From positions 1 through 30,318 of the IMG/VR virus record IMGVR_UViG_3300042896_000682: 30,318 bases of DNA, one strand, 5' to 3'. Positions 16,947 through 30,318 of this stretch are shown here, in pieces. The notes beneath the pieces are model-generated. The model had not been told where the DNA came from, searched no databases, and saw nothing but the letters and a program-made list of their open reading frames with translations. A program made the translations under genes and the position numbers. Positions within the stretch are counted from its first letter, which is position 1; each line of letters begins with the position of its first letter. This stretch comes from a virus.

Positions 16947-17735
16947 TTATTGATTTATTGAAAATTTAGGTTTTTCTGAATAAGGCTGTGTTTCATTTTT
17001 TAATTGAAAGAATCCTTTCCATCCTTTTGCCATTGACTGGTTTATAATTTCAATAGCGGTTTTTTCGCTTTTTTGAGAAAGATTTGATAATTCTGTAAGT
17101 GAAGCCTGCTCGCTTTGAACTGATTTGTATTTGAAATTAAATTCTTTGGATTTATATACTTTCCAAAGCTGCCATTGTGTTTTGAATTTTTCTGTAAAAA
17201 ATGGATATTCTATTTTTATAACATCAACAACCGCTGCTTTTGGTTCTTTTATTAAAAGAACTTTACTTTCCTTTACTTTACTTTCCTTTACTTTACTTTC
17301 CTTTACTTTACTTTGTATAGTTTCTGTCACAGAAACATCTGTTTTTTCGTCAAAATTTGCTATTTCTAGTATTTTTTTATTCAGAAACTTATCTTTTGCA
17401 TTGTTTCTCTTGTCTAAAACTGGTTGCAATCTTTTCTTTAAACCATTTGAAAAAAAGACATTATCTTGATTTTGTAACAAGCCTATTTTAACACAGTAAT
17501 CCAAAATTTGAATTAAAGTTTCAGTTTCAACATCAAAGTCTCCAGCTAAAATCTCATATTGCAAATCATTCATTTCAAATTCAAAAAAAATGCAATCAGT
17601 CAAGTATTCCAAAAACATGTTATAAACGGAATAACCAATTGAAAACCTTCGTCTCAAAGCTTTTATTTTAGGATCGTTCCTCATGCCTGAATCATGAGAA
17701 AAGTAGTCCGCATTTTCTTTTTTAGGTCTAGCCAT
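16947..17735 (-). CDS. DUF4373-type replication protein
   Basis: 262 residues. MARPKKENADYFSHDSGMRN followed by KIKALRRRFSIGYSVYNMFLEYL is the signature of the DUF4373 (Lin1244/Lin1753-like) N-terminal domain, a winged-helix family common in phage and plasmid replication regions. A basic linker at ~142-158 is made of SKVKE repeats from a 15-bp DNA tandem repeat. The C-terminal part (WQLWKVYKSKEFNFKYKS) is a typical DnaD-like or adaptor tail. Its partner is the DnaC-like gene directly downstream. Likely role: replication initiation. Confidence 0.75.
   Translation of the reverse strand: MARPKKENADYFSHDSGMRNDPKIKALRRRFSIGYSVYNMFLEYLTDCIFFEFEMNDLQYEILAGDFDVETETLIQILDYCVKIGLLQNQDNVFFSNGLKKRLQPVLDKRNNAKDKFLNKKILEIANFDEKTDVSVTETIQSKVKESKVKESKVKESKVLLIKEPKAAVVDVIKIEYPFFTEKFKTQWQLWKVYKSKEFNFKYKSVQSEQASLTELSNLSQKSEKTAIEIINQSMAKGWKGFFQLKNETQPYSEKPKFSINQ
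17261..17314 (-). repeat. 15-bp tandem repeat in replication gene linker
   Basis: Three full units of CTTTACTTTCCTTTA (plus strand) at 17261, 17276 and 17291, and a partial fourth. The length is a multiple of three, so loss or gain of a unit changes the linker by five residues (SKVKE) without a frameshift. Confidence 0.9.
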
Positions 17736-19636: not shown

Positions 19637-19933
19637 TTAGGTGAATTCCAAATACTCACCGTTCTTTTTTATTTTTGTTTTAAATGGAAACTTATCTTTT
19701 GGGACTTTCTCAATAGTTTGAATCAGATACTTTCCTCCAGTAAAAACTACTCTAGGTTCATCCCGATACTCAATTTGTAAATCAAGTCTTGAACCTCTTC
19801 CTTCATAATTTGATGGAACTACTTTAAAGTCCATTACGATTATGTCTTTATCTAGTAGTTTTGATGTATTTATTTTTTCACCGGTGAAACATGTTATTTC
19901 TGGTTTTATATCGAAATCTTTAAAATTGTTCAT
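19637..19933 (-). CDS. hypothetical protein next to DGR reverse transcriptase
   Basis: 98 residues, beta-rich (VVFTGGKYLIQTIEKVP, PFKTKIKKNGEYLEFT). It overlaps the reverse transcriptase stop by 14 bp, so it is made from the same mRNA. It lacks the helical-bundle character and length (about 120) of Avd, the usual DGR accessory protein. A single-strand-binding-like beta fold is possible. Unknown function; its tight link to the reverse transcriptase merits a test. Confidence 0.6.
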   Translation of the reverse strand: MNNFKDFDIKPEITCFTGEKINTSKLLDKDIIVMDFKVVPSNYEGRGSRLDLQIEYRDEPRVVFTGGKYLIQTIEKVPKDKFPFKTKIKKNGEYLEFT

Positions 19934-20951
19934 TGGGTATTAATTTTTTTAATAAGTGTTTTGAATTGCAATGTTTTGCCCATCCATAATAAGCCGCTAT
20001 AGTGGCTTTATTCTTTGTTTTTGACATTGCCTTTGCGAATCTTTTTTTAATTGATTTCCGGAGCATTGTGTGCGTATGGTAGAAGACATATCCAACAAAA
20101 TCAATTCCACGAGATTCAATGGGAAATATTTGATAATTACCTTTTACCTCCAGTTTTAAATTATCTTTCAGATAGGTTTTTATTTCTGCTAAAATTTCAT
20201 GCAAATGAGTTTTATTACTGGATAGAATTACGATATCATCAGCATATCTGAAGTAATATTTAATCTCCTTATTTTCTTTTATCCAATGATCGAAATACGT
20301 TAGGTAATAGTTAGCAAAATATTGACTTAGATAATTTCCAATCGGTAAACCTTCAGCACTATCAATGATTTCATCAAGTAACCAAAGAAGATCATTGTCC
20401 TTAAATTTTCTTCTTAATAATTGCTTGAGTATTTCATGATCTACATTTGGGTAAAACTTCACGATGTCTAATTTTAGACAGTACTTTGTGTTCTCCTGGT
20501 GCCGCAATGCTAGTTTCAAATTTTTAGCAGCTCCATGAATACCTCTTCCTTTGATGCAACTATAAGTATCAGCTGTGAATAGCTTTGTAAAAATTGGTTC
20601 TAGCACATTCATTATTGCATGATGCGTTATTCTATCTGGGAAATAAGGAAGTCTAAAAACTAATCTTTCTTTTGGCTCATACACTTTGAAAGTGGTATAT
20701 TCTGATGTTTGGTAATTCTTTTCAAACAACATCTTATTAAGCTCTACAAGATTATTCTGTGGATTCCTATCAAATACTTTAACTCCATACTGTTTAGCTT
20801 TTCCCTTGCGTGCTTTACTTTCTGCAAGTGTTAGATTTTCAATTGAAATGATCTGCTGATAAATATTTTTGAATCTTTTCATACTTTGCTTTGATTGGTT
20901 CGTTTTCACTTTCATTACTAACGAACCTATTAATTTGTGTTTTTTTGCCAT
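19920..20951 (-). CDS. DGR reverse transcriptase
   Basis: 343 residues from the ATG at 20951; the Met24 codon at 20882 (MKRFKNIYQQI) better matches usual DGR starts and is a good alternative. Domains: LPYFPDRITHHAIMNVLEP (101-119), SCIKGRGIHGA (131-141), LKLDIVKFYPNVDH with Asp162, GLPIGNYLSQYFANYYL (201-217), which carries the I/LGxxxSQ signature of DGR enzymes, YFRYADDIVIL with catalytic Asp248-Asp249, and DFVGYVF (284-290). It copies the template RNA with adenine-specific errors. The template repeat ends 37 bp upstream of the ATG and the two targets lie just before it. Confidence 0.93.
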   Translation of the reverse strand: MAKKHKLIGSLVMKVKTNQSKQSMKRFKNIYQQIISIENLTLAESKARKGKAKQYGVKVFDRNPQNNLVELNKMLFEKNYQTSEYTTFKVYEPKERLVFRLPYFPDRITHHAIMNVLEPIFTKLFTADTYSCIKGRGIHGAAKNLKLALRHQENTKYCLKLDIVKFYPNVDHEILKQLLRRKFKDNDLLWLLDEIIDSAEGLPIGNYLSQYFANYYLTYFDHWIKENKEIKYYFRYADDIVILSSNKTHLHEILAEIKTYLKDNLKLEVKGNYQIFPIESRGIDFVGYVFYHTHTMLRKSIKKRFAKAMSKTKNKATIAAYYGWAKHCNSKHLLKKLIPNEQF

Positions 20952-20988
20952 GTGGGCAAGGTCTGTGATGTATAATATTTTTTAGCTC

Positions 20989-21065
20989 AGGTGCGAGCTG
21001 ACATTCGAATTCGTATTCCAATTATCGTAGTCGTTGTACGAAAAACTGACGCCTGAAGAAGAACT
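20989..21065 (-). repeat. DGR template repeat (TR)
   Basis: 77 bp between the last target gene and the reverse transcriptase. On the coding strand it reads Ser/Asn/Tyr-rich with AAT, AAC and TAC codons, the adenine-rich codons typical of templates. It contains 20 coding-strand adenines; 15 differ in VR1 and 14 in VR2, with A to G most frequent. The adjacent flanks (20988 on one side, 21066 on the other) diverge at non-adenines, which sets the ends. It is expected to be transcribed as the template RNA. Confidence 0.93.
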
Positions 21066-21095
21066 ACAGCAACGACACCACACAACCTTAATTAT

Positions 21096-21470
21096 TTATG
21101 CTTTTACAAAATAGCTTTTGTACAAATCTTCAAATTGCTTCCCGGCATATTTTGCCTGCTCTCTAGTTTCAAAGCAAAGGCGCGAGCCGACATCCGAATC
21201 CGTATCCCAACCACCGCAGACGTCGCACGAAAAACCGACGCCCGAAGAAGAACCCATCTCGAACCAAGGATAGTATTTGTATTGATTCCAATCTTTCCAG
21301 TCTGGTACCCATTCGCCGTTTATAGCTTTGGCGATTATCACTAATTTGGCATGGTCAATCATTGCCTGTCTATCTGATTCATAAAACAGTGAGAAATCAG
21401 GAACTACATTTTTAGGGTTGAGAGCTAATACTTTACAAGCATCTTCAAAAGTTTTAATATCTGTGTACAT
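21096..21470 (-). CDS. DGR target protein 1 (variable protein)
   Basis: 124 residues. The conserved lead-in VPDWKDWNQYKYYPWFEM (55-72) is followed by the variable region SSSGVGFSCDVCGGWDTDSD (74-93) and VGSRLCF (94-100). The pattern of a variable surface closed by a GSRxCF strand resembles the C-type-lectin-like variable domains of other DGR targets. No signal peptide or membrane span, so it is likely cytoplasmic or a virion component. It is a paralogue of the next gene. Codons at TR adenines give Cys82, Asp83, Val84, Cys85, Gly86, Gly87, Asp89, Asp91 and Asp93. Confidence 0.88.
   Translation of the reverse strand: MYTDIKTFEDACKVLALNPKNVVPDFSLFYESDRQAMIDHAKLVIIAKAINGEWVPDWKDWNQYKYYPWFEMGSSSGVGFSCDVCGGWDTDSDVGSRLCFETREQAKYAGKQFEDLYKSYFVKA
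21178..21254 (-). repeat. DGR variable repeat 1 (VR1)
   Basis: Aligns with the template repeat without gaps over 77 bp. 15 differences, all at template adenines on the coding strand (14 A to G, 1 A to T). Corresponds to residues ~73-98 of target protein 1. Confidence 0.93.
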
Positions 21471-21472
21471 AA

Positions 21473-21949
21473 TTAAATTGTAAAAAGTGGTTTGTAAATT
21501 TCTTGTTCAAAAAGTTTTCCAGCATGTTTTGCCAAATCAGCAGATTTAAAGCAAAGGCGCGAGCCGACACCCGAATACGTAAACCAATCACCGAAGCCGT
21601 CGTCCGAAAAACCGACGCCCGAAGACGAAACCATAGTAAACCAAGGGAAGTACTTATACTCATTTGAACTTGTCCAATCTGGAAGCCATCCCTCATTGAA
21701 AGTGATGCAAACTAATTTTGCCATTCGATAAGCAACTTCATCCGGTTCCAATCCTTTACAGGATGTTTCAAAATCTTCTCTAGAAATTCCATTATTTTCT
21801 AAAACATCATCAAAATTTTTGATTCTGTCTTTTATATCTTTAAGAAATACCTTTTTTCCAAATAGATTTTCAAGTAATGATTTCCCTTTTGTGCTTGCTG
21901 CTTCATGAGCTTTTAAAGCATTTGCTTTGTCAATTTGTAATGTTTCCAT
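21473..21949 (-). CDS. DGR target protein 2 (variable protein)
   Basis: 158 residues. It has an N-terminal helical extension (1-75, LKDIKDRIKNFDDVLENNGI) absent from the shorter paralogue. Then LPDWTSSNEYKYFPWFTM, the variable region SSSGVGFSDDGFGDWFTYSG (108-127) and VGSRLCF (128-134). The core is the same as target 1. No export signal. It is followed 2 bp later by target 1. The pair probably arose by duplication, with both kept as VR acceptors of one template. Function unknown. Confidence 0.88.
   Translation of the reverse strand: METLQIDKANALKAHEAASTKGKSLLENLFGKKVFLKDIKDRIKNFDDVLENNGISREDFETSCKGLEPDEVAYRMAKLVCITFNEGWLPDWTSSNEYKYFPWFTMVSSSGVGFSDDGFGDWFTYSGVGSRLCFKSADLAKHAGKLFEQEIYKPLFTI
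21555..21625 (-). repeat. DGR variable repeat 2 (VR2)
   Basis: Aligns with the template repeat over 71 bp with 15 differences: 14 at template adenines (10 A to G, 4 A to T) and one T to G (21604 against 21038). Beyond 21625 it diverges at non-adenines, so retrohoming or identity ends there. Encodes the variable face of target protein 2. Confidence 0.92.
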
Positions 21950-26683: not shown

Positions 26684-27295
26684 ATGAGCGATATAGACGT
26701 AAGAGAAATAAGAAAAAAATTAGGACTAACACAATTAGCTTTTGCCAAAAAGATAGGAGTATCAAGAGATACAATAATAAATTATGAAAAAGGAGAAACT
26801 ATTCCAGCATCAAAAATAGAAATGTTGAATAATCTACTTTTAAATAAAAAAGATGTTAGCATTTTAGAAATAATAGAACCTCAACAAGGCGTGCCTTATT
26901 ACGATTTAGATTTCACGGCTGGATTCTTGGAGGTAACCAATAACCAAGGAACAAAGCCGGATTCGTATATTAATCATCCATTTTTTAAAGGATGCGATTA
27001 TGTAGTACGAGCATCAGGACAATCAATGGCAAAGGTGATTTCTCATGGTGACGCAATAGGATTAATAAAGTTGAATAACTGGCAAGATTTTTTCCCTTTT
27101 GGCGAAATTTATGCCATTGTAACGAATGATAATTTTAGAATGATTAAAGTGATCACACAAGGAGATAGTGAAGAACACTATACATTAATAAGTAAACCAA
27201 CTGACGGCAAAAAAGACGAATTTCCACCACAACAAATTAAGAAAAGCAGCATTTCAGCTATTTTCAGAGTTCAAGCTTCAAGCCATTTATTTTAA
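26684..27295 (+). CDS. phage repressor, HTH plus S24 peptidase
   Basis: 203 residues. The N-terminal XRE HTH (REIRKKLGLTQLAFAKKIGV, 7-26, with SRDTIINYEKGE) binds DNA. The C-terminal S24 peptidase has SGQSM with nucleophile Ser114 and general base Lys155 (FRMIKVI). Ala79-Gly80 (FTAGF) is a plausible self-cleavage site. It maintains lysogeny and would be inactivated by RecA upon DNA damage. It is divergent from the early operon, and the likely operators lie between them. First gene of a rightward operon. Confidence 0.9.
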   Translation: MSDIDVREIRKKLGLTQLAFAKKIGVSRDTIINYEKGETIPASKIEMLNNLLLNKKDVSILEIIEPQQGVPYYDLDFTAGFLEVTNNQGTKPDSYINHPFFKGCDYVVRASGQSMAKVISHGDAIGLIKLNNWQDFFPFGEIYAIVTNDNFRMIKVITQGDSEEHYTLISKPTDGKKDEFPPQQIKKSSISAIFRVQASSHLF

Positions 27296-27314
27296 ATTAA
27301 ACAAATCAAAAATT

Positions 27315-27722
27315 ATGAAGAAAATTACTTTACTATTTGTGCTGTCCATCGCTTTGTTTTCATGTTCAAAAAACAACGAACAAGTTGAAATTGCTAAAAA
27401 TAAATTAAAGGAACAAGGAAAAGCTGATATAGAAATTCAAAGTACCAAGTTCGATGTAGTTGAGATGATTGATAAAGATGTGTATAATATTCTTTATTAT
27501 AAAAAAAACAAAGCAATATTTGAAACAGTATCTGTTGGAGGTGATTATAAAGAAATGGAAAATGATTCTAAAAAACTTGCAAGTGAAATCAGAAATTCAA
27601 AAGGAGAAAAAAAGTTTTTCAAGGTTCATTTTTATAGACTTGCTGACAAAGATACCGTAAGTAATAGTATTTTATTTTTGAATGATAAGAATGAAGAAAT
27701 AGGATTTGAATATTTAAAATAA
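27315..27722 (+). CDS. lipoprotein in lysogeny operon
   Basis: 135 residues. Type II signal peptide: MKKITLLFVLSIALFSC with lipobox LFSC and lipidated Cys17. The mature part is small, charged alpha/beta (KNKLKEQGKADIEIQSTKFD, KKFFKVHFYRLADKDTVSNS), with no recognised family. It lies 19 bp after the repressor and is likely expressed in the lysogen, at the membrane. Lysogeny-operon lipoproteins can alter phage adsorption; that is inference. The next gene follows directly. Confidence 0.8.
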   Translation: MKKITLLFVLSIALFSCSKNNEQVEIAKNKLKEQGKADIEIQSTKFDVVEMIDKDVYNILYYKKNKAIFETVSVGGDYKEMENDSKKLASEIRNSKGEKKFFKVHFYRLADKDTVSNSILFLNDKNEEIGFEYLK

Positions 27723-27989
27723 ATGACTCCAATTGACACTAAAATATTAGACTTAATTGATATACTTAAAACATTAGGCATCATTGAATATGCCAAAGAT
27801 TTCTGTGAGGCAATAGGAATGCCAAAACAGAGCATTACAAGAATAAGACAAGGTAAGGCTCATTTTACGGCTCAACATATTGCAAACATTTGCAAAGTTT
27901 ATAATATCAATCCGTTCTGGATTTTTGACACTCAAAAAAATGTTTTTAATAGTACTGAAATTCAATTAAATAAGGCAGTTAATCTATAA
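27723..27989 (+). CDS. XRE-like HTH regulator
   Basis: 88 residues. AKDFCEAIGMPKQSITRIRQ then GKAHFTAQHIANICKVYNIN forms a HTH (helices ~24-55) with NPFWIFDT, a common ending in Bacteroidota XRE proteins. The start ATG directly follows the lipoprotein stop (27720-27722), indicating coupling. It may regulate phage or moron genes; a role at the 17-bp palindrome is only a hypothesis. Confidence 0.7.
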   Translation: MTPIDTKILDLIDILKTLGIIEYAKDFCEAIGMPKQSITRIRQGKAHFTAQHIANICKVYNINPFWIFDTQKNVFNSTEIQLNKAVNL

Positions 27990-27997
27990 AATAGCAA

Positions 27998-28016
27998 TGT
28001 ACAAATAGTGTACAAA
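27998..28016. repeat. two TGTACAAA repeats one helical turn apart
   Basis: TGTACAAA at 27998-28005 and again at 28009-28016, 11 bp apart. The phasing and the place between the last phage gene and the att site suggest a protein-binding pair, such as integrase arm sites or an operator. Confidence 0.4.
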
Positions 28017-28097
28017 AACAATAATAACTCATTTTAAATTTGTTTGTAAAACGTTTAAAATCAGTCATGTAATTTATAAAAAGGCGGTATTATAGTT

Positions 28098-28113
28098 TCC
28101 CTCTTTCTCCGCA
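28098..28113 (+). other. probable attR: 3' end of a tRNA-Ser gene
   Basis: TCCCTCTTTCTCCGCA reads as the end of a tRNA-Ser: T-stem strand CCCTC, acceptor strand TTTCTCC, discriminator G. No other part of a tRNA precedes it. It is followed by a strong terminator. Phage genes lie to the left and chromosomal-type genes to the right, so this fits an integration site in which the displaced gene end remains at the right junction. Confidence 0.55.
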
Positions 28114-28116
28114 AAG

Positions 28117-28146
28117 AAAACCCGAAACGAAAGTTTCGGGTTTTTT
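28117..28146 (+). terminator. strong Rho-independent terminator
   Basis: Stem CCCGAAAC (28121-28128) and GTTTCGGG (28133-28140), loop GAAA, A run before and six T after. It probably is the native terminator of the tRNA-Ser gene whose 3' end lies just upstream. Confidence 0.85.
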
Positions 28147-28195
28147 GTTTTCAAGCCCACGCTAAAAGCTTGCTTTTATAATCGGGCTTGAAAAC
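28147..28195. repeat. large nested inverted repeat
   Basis: Outer arms GTTTTCAAGCCC (28147-28158) and GGGCTTGAAAAC (28184-28195) are perfect. An inner stem TAAAAGC (28163-28169) and GCTTTTA (28172-28178) is also perfect. It lies directly after the terminator T run. Could be a second terminator or a cruciform. Confidence 0.75.
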
Positions 28196-28200
28196 AAAAA

Positions 28201-28235
28201 ACAAAGCAAAATTCACTTTGGTTCAGGTTTTCTTT
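28201..28235 (+). repeat. 35-bp direct repeat, copy A
   Basis: The 35 bp starting ACAAAGCAAAATTCACTTTG recur identically at 28321-28355, exactly 120 bp on. The flanking bases are partly similar (CTTGAAAACAA versus CTTAAAAACAA), so the original duplication was longer. No gene overlaps this copy. Confidence 0.9.
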
Positions 28236-28314
28236 GCACGGTTCCCCCTTCTGGGATCAACGGAGTTAATCCTAGAAAATTTAGTTTTCAGAACAACGTT
28301 ATTAGCGGACTTAA

Positions 28315-28542
28315 AAACAAACAAAGCAAAATTCACTTTGGTTCAGGTTTTCTTTTGATATAGCAATTATAAATATTAATAAAACAAATATTAAAACAAT
28401 TGAAGCTATTAAACCTGATCTAAACCGACAAACAGAGCAAGGAAAAGATGATAGAAGACAAGTAGTTGGCCCGCCAAATAAGCATAAACATCCTTCTTTA
28501 AAACTGCACAAACAGGAGCCTAAATATAAAGGTATTTTTTAA
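28315..28542 (+). pseudogene. possible 3' remnant of a gene
   Basis: An open frame with no usable ATG. It ends RRQVVGPPNKHKHPSLKLHK and a few more residues, then TAA at 28540-28542, followed 11 bp later by a terminator. The upstream part enters the 35-bp repeat. It may be the tail of a gene cut by rearrangement. The minus-strand frame here looks like a shadow. Confidence 0.35.
28321..28355 (+). repeat. 35-bp direct repeat, copy B
   Basis: Second copy of the repeat at 28201-28235, identical over 35 bp. It lies at the head of an open frame without a start codon (28315-28542), so the repeat may mark a deletion or rearrangement endpoint. Confidence 0.9.
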
Positions 28543-28553
28543 TCTCTTTCGTA

Positions 28554-28579
28554 GCCTATCAATTTTCGATAGGCATTTT
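28554..28579 (+). terminator. terminator after the gene remnant
   Basis: Stem GCCTATC (28554-28560... GTAGCCTATC end) and GATAGGC (28568-28574) with loop AATTTTC, then ATTTTT. It ends any rightward transcript before the SDR gene. The following 120 bp up to 28700 hold the promoter region of that gene; no clear TAnnTTTG box at standard spacing is seen. Confidence 0.75.
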
Positions 28580-28699
28580 TGTTACAATTGTCCCGTCCTC
28601 AAATAGATTTGTCATTTTGGACACATCTCAAGTCAATTTGGCAACATTTATCATCTATTATATCTTGAACTTTGCATAGTTAAAAATAAAGATCTCACT

Positions 28700-29509
28700 A
28701 TGCAAAAGACTATCTTCATCACCGGAGCCTCGTCAGGACTTGGAAAAACAACTGCCAAATTATTTCAGTCCGAAGGGTGGCATGTAATCGCTACGATGCG
28801 AAACCCGGAAAACGAAAAAGAGCTGACAAAACTTTCAAATGTTACCGTTATGAAGTTGGATGTAAACAACCCAACAGCAATAACTGAAACAGTAAATCAG
28901 CTACTTAAAAGTCATACTGTCGACCTTGTGTTAAACAATGCTGGGTATGGTCTGGTAGGTCCATTGGAAGCCCTAAATGATGAACAAGTTATAAGACAAA
29001 TAAATACCAATTTGCTGGGTACTATCAGGGTAACAAAGGAATTTCTACCCCACTTTCGAAGACGGAAAAGTGGTTTGTTCATCAATATTACTTCAATGTT
29101 CGGTCTTATCGGCTACCCTACCTGCAGTATCTATGCCGCTACAAAGTTTGCGCTGGATGGATTTTCCGAGAGTTTAGCATACGAACTAGCTCATTTTAAT
29201 ATAAAAGTAAAGACTATTGCACCGGGTGGAATTCAAACAGATTTCGCTGGTCGTTCAATGGATGGCGGTATGCATGACGCATACAAAAAATTAGTAGAAA
29301 AAGTAAGCGAAGGATATAGTGAGGAAAAAGCAAGCCAGTTTTCAACACCGGAAAGTATTGCCGAAGTAATCTTTGAAGCAGCCACCGACAATAAGGATCA
29401 GCTACGATATATAGCCGGTAATGATGCGGTTGCCTTGTATAATGAAAGAATTCAACATGGTGCTGAAGAACAATATTTGACGATAAAAAAAATGTTTGAT
29501 TTCAAATGA
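28700..29509 (+). CDS. SDR-family oxidoreductase
   Basis: 269 residues. Classical short-chain dehydrogenase: TGASSGLG cofactor loop (8-15), NNAG (79-82), catalytic Ser132 (ITSMFG), Tyr145 and Lys149 (YAATK), and PGGIQTDF. Length fits the classical family. It would reduce or oxidise a small carbonyl or alcohol with NAD(P); the substrate is unknown. It lies outside the prophage and is followed 34 bp later by another NAD(P)-binding gene in the same direction, probably one operon. Confidence 0.88.
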   Translation: MQKTIFITGASSGLGKTTAKLFQSEGWHVIATMRNPENEKELTKLSNVTVMKLDVNNPTAITETVNQLLKSHTVDLVLNNAGYGLVGPLEALNDEQVIRQINTNLLGTIRVTKEFLPHFRRRKSGLFINITSMFGLIGYPTCSIYAATKFALDGFSESLAYELAHFNIKVKTIAPGGIQTDFAGRSMDGGMHDAYKKLVEKVSEGYSEEKASQFSTPESIAEVIFEAATDNKDQLRYIAGNDAVALYNERIQHGAEEQYLTIKKMFDFK

Positions 29510-29543
29510 GAAATCCGCTTTCAATAACTTAAAAAAAATAAAA

Positions 29544-30318
29544 ATGATAGTAATTACAGGAGCAACAGGAAAAATAGGCTCTAAAATCGCAACGATATTA
29601 ATCGATAAAGGAAAAAAAGTCAGAGTAGTTGGAAGAAGCTCCACTGCATTGGAAAAATTACAATCACAAAGCACCGAAATTGCCGTTGGTGAAATGCTTG
29701 ATGCAGCTTTTTTAACGAAAGCCTTCTCTAATGCTGACGCGCTTTTTTTAATGTTACCTCCAGATAAAGACACATTGGATTTTGGTGCATTGCAGGATGA
29801 AATCGGCAGGATACAAATTGAGGCAATTAAAAATTCCGGAATAAAAAATATCGTGTTCCTATCTTCTCAGGGAGCACACGATATAATTCATACCGGAACC
29901 GTTAAAGGCTTGGGCAGACAGGAAATCCGTCTAAATGAATTGGCTCCAGATGTCAACGTTTTAAGTTTACGTCCTGAGGCATTTATGGAAAACAACATCG
30001 AATCCTTAAAATTATTTAATACCATAGCCTCCCCTTTGCGCCCCGAAATAAGCACCGGATTGATTGCCACTGGTGACATTGCTGTTTTCGCAGCTGAGAA
30101 ATTGGATAAACTCGATTTTAAAGGAAAAACTCATCAGTATTTGCTGGGTAATCGCGAGTATACACAAACCGAAGCTACTCAAATAATTGGGAAAGCCATC
30201 GGCCGTCCAGAGCTGGAGTATGTTCAATATTCTTATGAAGACTATAAAAACAAATTGTTAAGTGTGGGCATGTCAGAAAGCAGAGCAGATATGATTACTG
30301 AACGCTACAAAGCAATAA
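29544..30318 (+). CDS. NmrA-like NAD(P)-binding protein, 3' end off window
   Basis: The ATG at 29544 opens MIVITGATGKIGSKIATILI, with the GATGKIG dinucleotide-binding loop (6-12). 258 codons are open and the frame runs off the end; the TAA at the last three bases is out of frame. The layout (FLSSQGAH, LRPEAFMENN, then YTQTEATQIIGKAIG) is that of NmrA/quinone-reductase-like atypical SDR proteins. It probably needs only a short continuation. Likely cotranscribed with the SDR upstream. Confidence 0.82.
   Translation, partial: MIVITGATGKIGSKIATILIDKGKKVRVVGRSSTALEKLQSQSTEIAVGEMLDAAFLTKAFSNADALFLMLPPDKDTLDFGALQDEIGRIQIEAIKNSGIKNIVFLSSQGAHDIIHTGTVKGLGRQEIRLNELAPDVNVLSLRPEAFMENNIESLKLFNTIASPLRPEISTGLIATGDIAVFAAEKLDKLDFKGKTHQYLLGNREYTQTEATQIIGKAIGRPELEYVQYSYEDYKNKLLSVGMSESRADMITERYKAI

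Follow-up and report, generated by a model that had tools for sequence, protein, structure and literature searches.

The prototype diversity-generating retroelement (DGR), and the only well-studied one, is that of a Bordetella phage, in which Avd is essential. Two new DGR accessory genes were reportedly announced by Wu et al. in 2018. According to myRT, Avd is found near just 62% of DGR reverse transcriptases (RTs; PMC8934634). Avd-less phage DGRs are already known as 'lineage 3', with crAssphage LMMB and its relatives (PMC7290462), and the DGR of hankyphage (Bacteroides phage p00) is experimentally active (PMC12135933). In BPP-1, where the cassette is ordered mtd-avd-TR-brt, the spacer between the template repeat (TR) and the RT gene serves both to recruit the RT-Avd complex and to prime cDNA synthesis (PMC12875486).

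Here we describe a DGR in IMG/VR virus record IMGVR_UViG_3300042896_000682; the whole 30,318-nt stretch of DNA that was analysed is called the window below. The DGR is of the known lineage 3 type: no Avd is present, the order is target-TR-RT, and the RT is close to those of crAss-like phages. Compared with the passages on lineage 3 in PMC7290462, the window cassette has the same order and the same lack of Avd, its RT is 52% identical, and its variable repeats (VRs) end in the (G)SRLC motif of lineage 3 / CLec3. It differs in its targets, a tandem pair of small ones in the replication region as against a tail-collar fibre protein of 486 aa, and those passages make no mention of the companion gene or of the CAG rule described below. 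With BPP-1 the cassette shares a homologous RT (34.5% identity), adenine-specific VR changes, a structured spacer between TR and RT, and non-identical IMH and IMH*; unlike BPP-1 it is without Avd, has a companion gene following the RT, and has its targets outside the tail genes. Hankyphage resembles it in carrying the companion domain, there fused to the RT C-terminus, and in that no small ORF tested near the RT matches Avd models, but has one large target with a C-terminal VR and an RT only 32% identical.

Organization of the cassette

The features, in window positions, are:

19637..19933, minus strand: companion gene, 98 aa, phrog_19665, overlapping the RT 3' end; candidate accessory factor in place of Avd (linkage, fusion, exclusivity)
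19920..20882, minus strand: DGR reverse transcriptase, 320 aa (RVT_1, E 2.7e-20)
20883..20993, minus strand: structured spacer RNA with three helices, Rfam RT-17-like (RT-17 match and covariation)
20985..20993, minus strand: IMH*, the TR 3' end, CACCTGAGC; fixed differences from the VRs at +7 and +10 to +12
20994..21054, minus strand: TR, predicted transferred tract; the recognisable repeat extends to about 20978-21064
21096..21470, minus strand: target gene 1, 124 aa, phrog_11581 family, carrying VR1
21168..21182, minus strand: IMH side of VR1, CGCCTTTGCTTT...; tracking of the TR by the VR ends between +5 and +11 (70 loci)
21183..21243, minus strand: VR1, predicted transferred tract
21473..21949, minus strand: target gene 2, 158 aa, phrog_11581 family, carrying VR2; the second target has the same place in relatives
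21545..21559, minus strand: IMH side of VR2, CGCCTTTGCTTT...; tracking ends as for VR1 (70 loci)
21560..21620, minus strand: VR2, predicted transferred tract

The RT carries the motifs GLPIGNYLSQ and YADD, in agreement with the DGR class pattern ([I/V/L]GxxxSQ, YxDD). Its best match among solved structures was the 8ub7-8ube series, listed as 'Reverse transcriptase' (8ub7, E 1e-44; next best 5e-16), a series that we take to represent the DGR RT complexes of Bordetella phage; matches to retron, group II and Drt3a RTs were far weaker. Annotated DGR phages are among the relatives of the RT (crAss-like, hankyphage, BPP-1). The protein most likely starts at 20882 (M24, MKRFKNIY...) and not at 20951, the start of the listed ORF: ATG was found at the codon equal to M24 in 70/70 loci, and several relatives have in-frame stops upstream of that codon. 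Sequences cut from the corrected start were used for the tree of 70 RTs referred to below.

A blind repeat search recovered an 81-nt family at 20984-21064 (TR), 21173-21253 (VR1) and 21550-21630 (VR2), as well as the paralogy of the two target genes (197 nt at 75% identity). Over 76 nt, in which adenine makes up 19/76 TR bases, VR1 has 14 mismatches to the TR, 14/14 at TR adenines (P 1.7e-11). Position numbers follow the coding (minus) strand and are counted from the Gly codon of GSR. In the 61-nt core so numbered (-55..+5), 13/13 mismatches of VR1 fall at TR adenines (P 1.3e-9), and so do 13/14 of VR2, the remaining one being T>G (P 1.7e-8). More TR/VR differences lie outside the tract at IMH/IMH* (e.g. 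G>T), and towards its 5' side VR2 has one G>T and one T>G relative to the TR. About 24-30 codons of the target gene are left after each VR with the frames open, which places the VR near the 3' end of the gene.

A preliminary description of this DNA, made from the sequence alone, had proposed a DGR spanning 19920-21949. Its content is borne out: both RT motifs are present as stated, the RT groups with DGR RTs when compared with structures and relatives, a template and two VRs in neighbouring paralogous genes agree with the repeat search and the target-gene paralogy, and the co-oriented order target 2, target 1, TR, RT holds, with all features on the minus strand. The extent needs correction, because inclusion of the companion gene takes the feature to 19637. 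The description had counted 15/15 VR1 changes at adenines, and for VR2 14 at adenines plus one T to G; the adenine-only character of VR1 and the single T>G of VR2 are upheld, and the counts are off by a base or two owing to a different choice of repeat end.

Hairpins downstream of the VR IMH are needed for efficiency in BPP-1. In the window, the hairpin z was -2.5 after VR2 and a weaker -1.6 after VR1. With all loci taken together, VRs showed no hairpin excess relative to TRs (mean z -1.19 for VRs vs -1.33 for TRs), which gives no support to a family-wide post-IMH hairpin. The hairpin right after VR2 (21528-21556, minus strand) has a 5-bp stem and a 4-nt loop, is extended by TTTGC/GCAAA, and is common to close relatives.

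Recent activity and the transferred tract

At least one TR/VR pair was found in 76/80 RT relatives in IMG/VR, with target 2, target 1, TR and RT nearly always following one another in this order; with the window included, two VRs are present in 63 loci and three in 9. Across 141 TR/VR pairs, 2027/2089 mismatches lie at TR adenines. Between the window and locus L003 the RT DNA is 96.3% identical (3.7% different) and the TR has 0/87 changes; VR1 has 13 changes and VR2 has 10, each at a TR adenine. The contigs of L071 and L073 are identical over about 2 kb (RT, TR and another ~900 bases) except for nine changes, all in one VR and 9/9 at TR adenines. A comparison of VRs across relatives had been suggested in the preliminary description as a check, and the outcome agrees with it: VRs vary, with new changes only at TR adenines (window vs L003). 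Judged from such comparisons among natural phages, the cassette is a genuine and recently active DGR. Remote VRs beyond the cassette were also observed (L055:404-484 and L071:12276-12343), at 5.6 kb on the upstream and 6.3 kb on the downstream side of the RT. Despite identical cassette backbones, contigs L071 and L073 differ in the remote VR near L071.

The extent of the tract was estimated from concerted evolution of TR and VR. On the tree of 70 RTs, at least 24 TR changes were counted at +5, a synonymous third-codon site, and VR1 and VR2 together match the TR there in 127/127 comparisons. VRs likewise agree with the TR at -46, -43, -16 and +2, where no more than one or two cases deviate. By +11, VRs no longer follow the TR (6/26 and 5/23 agree). 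This pattern indicates a tract that begins at about -55 and stops between +5 and +7, with IMH and IMH* marked by the fixed VR/TR differences at +7 and +11 seen across 70 loci.

Adenines in CAG contexts

Within the tract core (-46 to -5), any base can stand in the VR at a TR adenine: A in about 40%, G in 28%, T in 21% and C in 11%. Adenines in CAG were G in the VR in 350/354 cases in window-like loci and in 137/138 in crAss-query loci (~99%). In contrast, only 5/12 were G in BPP-1-like and 11/59 in ACA2-like loci (19-42%), the others remaining A, with none T or C. A>C changes in NAC contexts were also suppressed, to 2% here vs 11% in BPP-1-like pairs. The tract holds few other AG sites (GAG), and these behave in a mixed way, so that the rule concerns CAG. 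With the BPP-1 RT, A-to-C all but disappears when a G follows on the 3' side (0.08%; PMC12875486), which is in line with an RT that reads CAG as CGG.

A companion gene and the absence of Avd

A companion gene stands directly 3' of the RT, on the same strand, in 71/76 loci, and other neighbour genes are not conserved. Among 268 loci with enough flank, taken from five query groups, 109 have Avd only, 148 the companion only, 0 both and 11 neither. The companion alone is present in 68/71 window-like and 59/64 crAss-query loci (together 127/135), and in hankyphage-like loci it forms the C-terminal domain of the RT in 21/21 (profile comparison probability for the hankyphage fusion 98.5%, E 1.6e-15). 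Avd alone is present in 54/56 BPP-1-like and 55/56 ACA2-like loci. When 84,980 bacterial and archaeal genomes were searched with the companion alone, using a profile built from short ORFs only (an earlier profile had caught RTs via a fused sequence), 24 loci were found. A DGR RT lies upstream in 23 of them, usually within 20 nt, and the 24th, at a contig edge, starts with an apparent RT tail. Searches of Pfam, NCBIfam and PDB gave no credible match to the companion, and phrog_19665 is annotated as unknown function; the gene may already have been named by Wu et al. 2018. At locus L064, a 408-aa RT ORF reads through into the companion domain, either an independent fusion or a frameshift artefact.

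The Avd model NF033474 was absent from the window and from 36/37 other records. Its sole match (1/38 records), at G030:C1:4965-5276 in the record of L069, lies far from the companion-type DGR of that record; this true Avd gene is possibly part of a second DGR. No Avd hidden in the locus was found with NF033474, nor in window-like loci with a local Avd profile (0/71). The published 'Avd' label in hankyphage was not confirmed: 0/3 small ORFs tested near its RT matched Avd models, and two real Avd proteins run as controls did match. The cassette, which had been called complete, does comprise a TR, two VRs and an RT, but it is without Avd and has a different conserved gene in that place. On the simplest reading of these distributions, the companion probably does the job of Avd. 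Since neither gene was found in L071, L073, L074 and a few crAss-like loci, some of these DGRs may do without the companion.

A structured spacer RNA between TR and RT

The stretch upstream of the corrected RT start is, on covariation, a spacer RNA resembling RT-17. It is ~110 nt long and folds into three short helices, in which two-sided compensatory changes were found for 11/12 pairs and 97.8% of cells are paired; the covariation score was 0.70, vs at most 0.12 with the partners slid. Rfam RT-17 (RF03020) matches the window spacer at 20882-20963, up to the RT start codon, with E 8e-5 and 37.4 bits, just under the gathering threshold of 40.4, and 0/12 relatives tested reached that threshold. 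By analogy with BPP-1, the spacer RNA of the window may have a role similar to that of the BPP-1 spacer.

Targets and their genomic setting

The targets are flanked on one side by a NinB/Orf-like gene and a YqaJ exonuclease, and on the other by HNH, replication initiation and DnaC-like genes. Neighbours in relatives are likewise genes of DNA metabolism (replication, recombination, primase, methyltransferase and HNH), and none of the 25 commonest neighbour matches on either side in relatives is a tail family. By their gene neighbours, the targets lie in the replication region and not in the tail region. AF2 models of both targets gave a VR pLDDT under 50, with a helical N-terminal part in target 2. 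Foldseek with these models found no match to a C-type lectin fold, probably because the VR, modelled at low confidence, gives little usable alignment signal. The replication-initiation gene in the window contains three overlapping copies of a 15-bp tandem unit (17260-17314), which encodes a repeated KVKES motif. At 26684-30318 an opposite-strand repressor gene is followed by bacterial-looking genes (short-chain dehydrogenase), and a prophage end near 28 kb is suggested.

A distant homologue of the target (29%) is found in phage Versailles, in the order NinB, target, replisome organiser. The TR next to the Versailles RT matches a tail protein, with 12/13 mismatches at A, and the same TR matches the early-region target gene ~43 kb away, with 14/14 mismatches at TR adenines. 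One TR serving both genes points to diversification of the target family separately from the tail protein in that phage. The TR/VR loci of Versailles, a Bacteroides phage (ON453897) with one TR and two targets, are at L405:4241-4347 and L407:2125-2231.

Alternative explanations

The record is a fragment, and the cassette might be taken for a decayed or domesticated DGR with VRs that no longer change; with all frames open, and with VRs that differ from those of L003 at 23 adenines next to an identical TR, we consider this very improbable. The companion, being without a known domain and part of a cassette that sits among DNA-metabolism genes, could belong to phage DNA metabolism and simply travel along with the cassette. 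We regard this as unlikely, as a gene of that kind is hard to reconcile with the DGR RT just upstream of nearly every companion found in genomes, with covalent fusion to the RT in hankyphages and at one window-like locus, and with its never occurring together with Avd. The nature of the targets is more evenly balanced. There is close to an even chance that, as in BPP-1, they are tail proteins that bind the receptor, with genes placed apart from the other tail genes: for three DGR clades, Roux et al. assign the majority of viral targets to tail proteins (PMC8144416), and the distant Versailles homologue is itself annotated 'tail protein'. Against this stand the replication and recombination neighbours in both the window and its relatives, and the Versailles TR, which also diversifies a separate tail protein far from the target homologue.

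The G at CAG sites could likewise have an origin other than the RT, being kept by selection or reflecting the ends of the tract. Sites -48 and 0 encode conserved glycines, site +7, just beyond the tract, has the same A/G difference in a CAC context, and the scarcity and mixed behaviour of AG sites outside CAG is also compatible with this account, to which we give a substantial chance, though somewhat under one half. Selection on glycines would account for -48 and 0 but not for -55, where the CAG site is synonymous (TCA/TCG) and 78/80 VRs nevertheless have G and 0/80 have A; C, G or T in the TR at this site is copied into the VR in 46/50 (by locus). The TR has also toggled between A and G without a response of the VR, at least 14 times at -48 and at least 8 times at -55, and adenines outside CAG at -48/-47 vary. 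Tract ends would not explain CAG sites more than 15 nt from the repeat ends, which are G in 194/195 and 135/135 cases here (not de-duplicated), unlike Avd-type DGRs (12/52 and 7/13). On balance we slightly favour an origin of the CAG pattern at reverse transcription, the RT reading CAG as CGG.

Proposed mechanism and implications

We are highly confident in the overall reading of the locus as a functional, Avd-less Bacteroidetes phage DGR; within it, a role of the companion in the step of Avd is probable, and a reading of CAG adenines as G at reverse transcription is slightly more likely than not. In the proposed mechanism, a transcript of the TR and the structured spacer would be copied by the RT, with most template adenines miscopied at random and an adenine in 5'-CAG-3' read out as G almost always. 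In both VR1 and VR2, the cDNA would then take the place of the homologous core of 61 nt (about -55 to +5), as far as the GC-rich IMH; the TR would be spared through the difference between its IMH* and the IMH of the VRs. The step that needs Avd in the Bordetella phage would most likely be served by the companion encoded directly after the RT. Around a dozen codons would thereby become variable in each of the two small target proteins, whose genes lie between those for recombination and those for replication.

The lineage of the DGR is known; added interest comes from its companion gene, the CAG rule and the position of its targets in the genome. The mutual exclusivity of Avd and companion, together with the fusion in the active hankyphage DGR, makes directly testable how Avd-less DGRs manage. 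If CAG is read deterministically as CGG, the rule would give a handle on the adenine errors of the RT and a design rule for DGR-based diversification. More tentatively, and with less than an even chance of being right, there may be two mechanistic kinds of DGR, one with RT and Avd and the other with RT, an unrelated companion and the CAG-to-CGG rule, and the replication-region targets may act inside the host cell; were this true, a phage could hold some residues constant and randomise others. Targets in the replication region, one of them in Versailles diversified from a TR ~43 kb away, suggest that phages may diversify proteins that act after entry.
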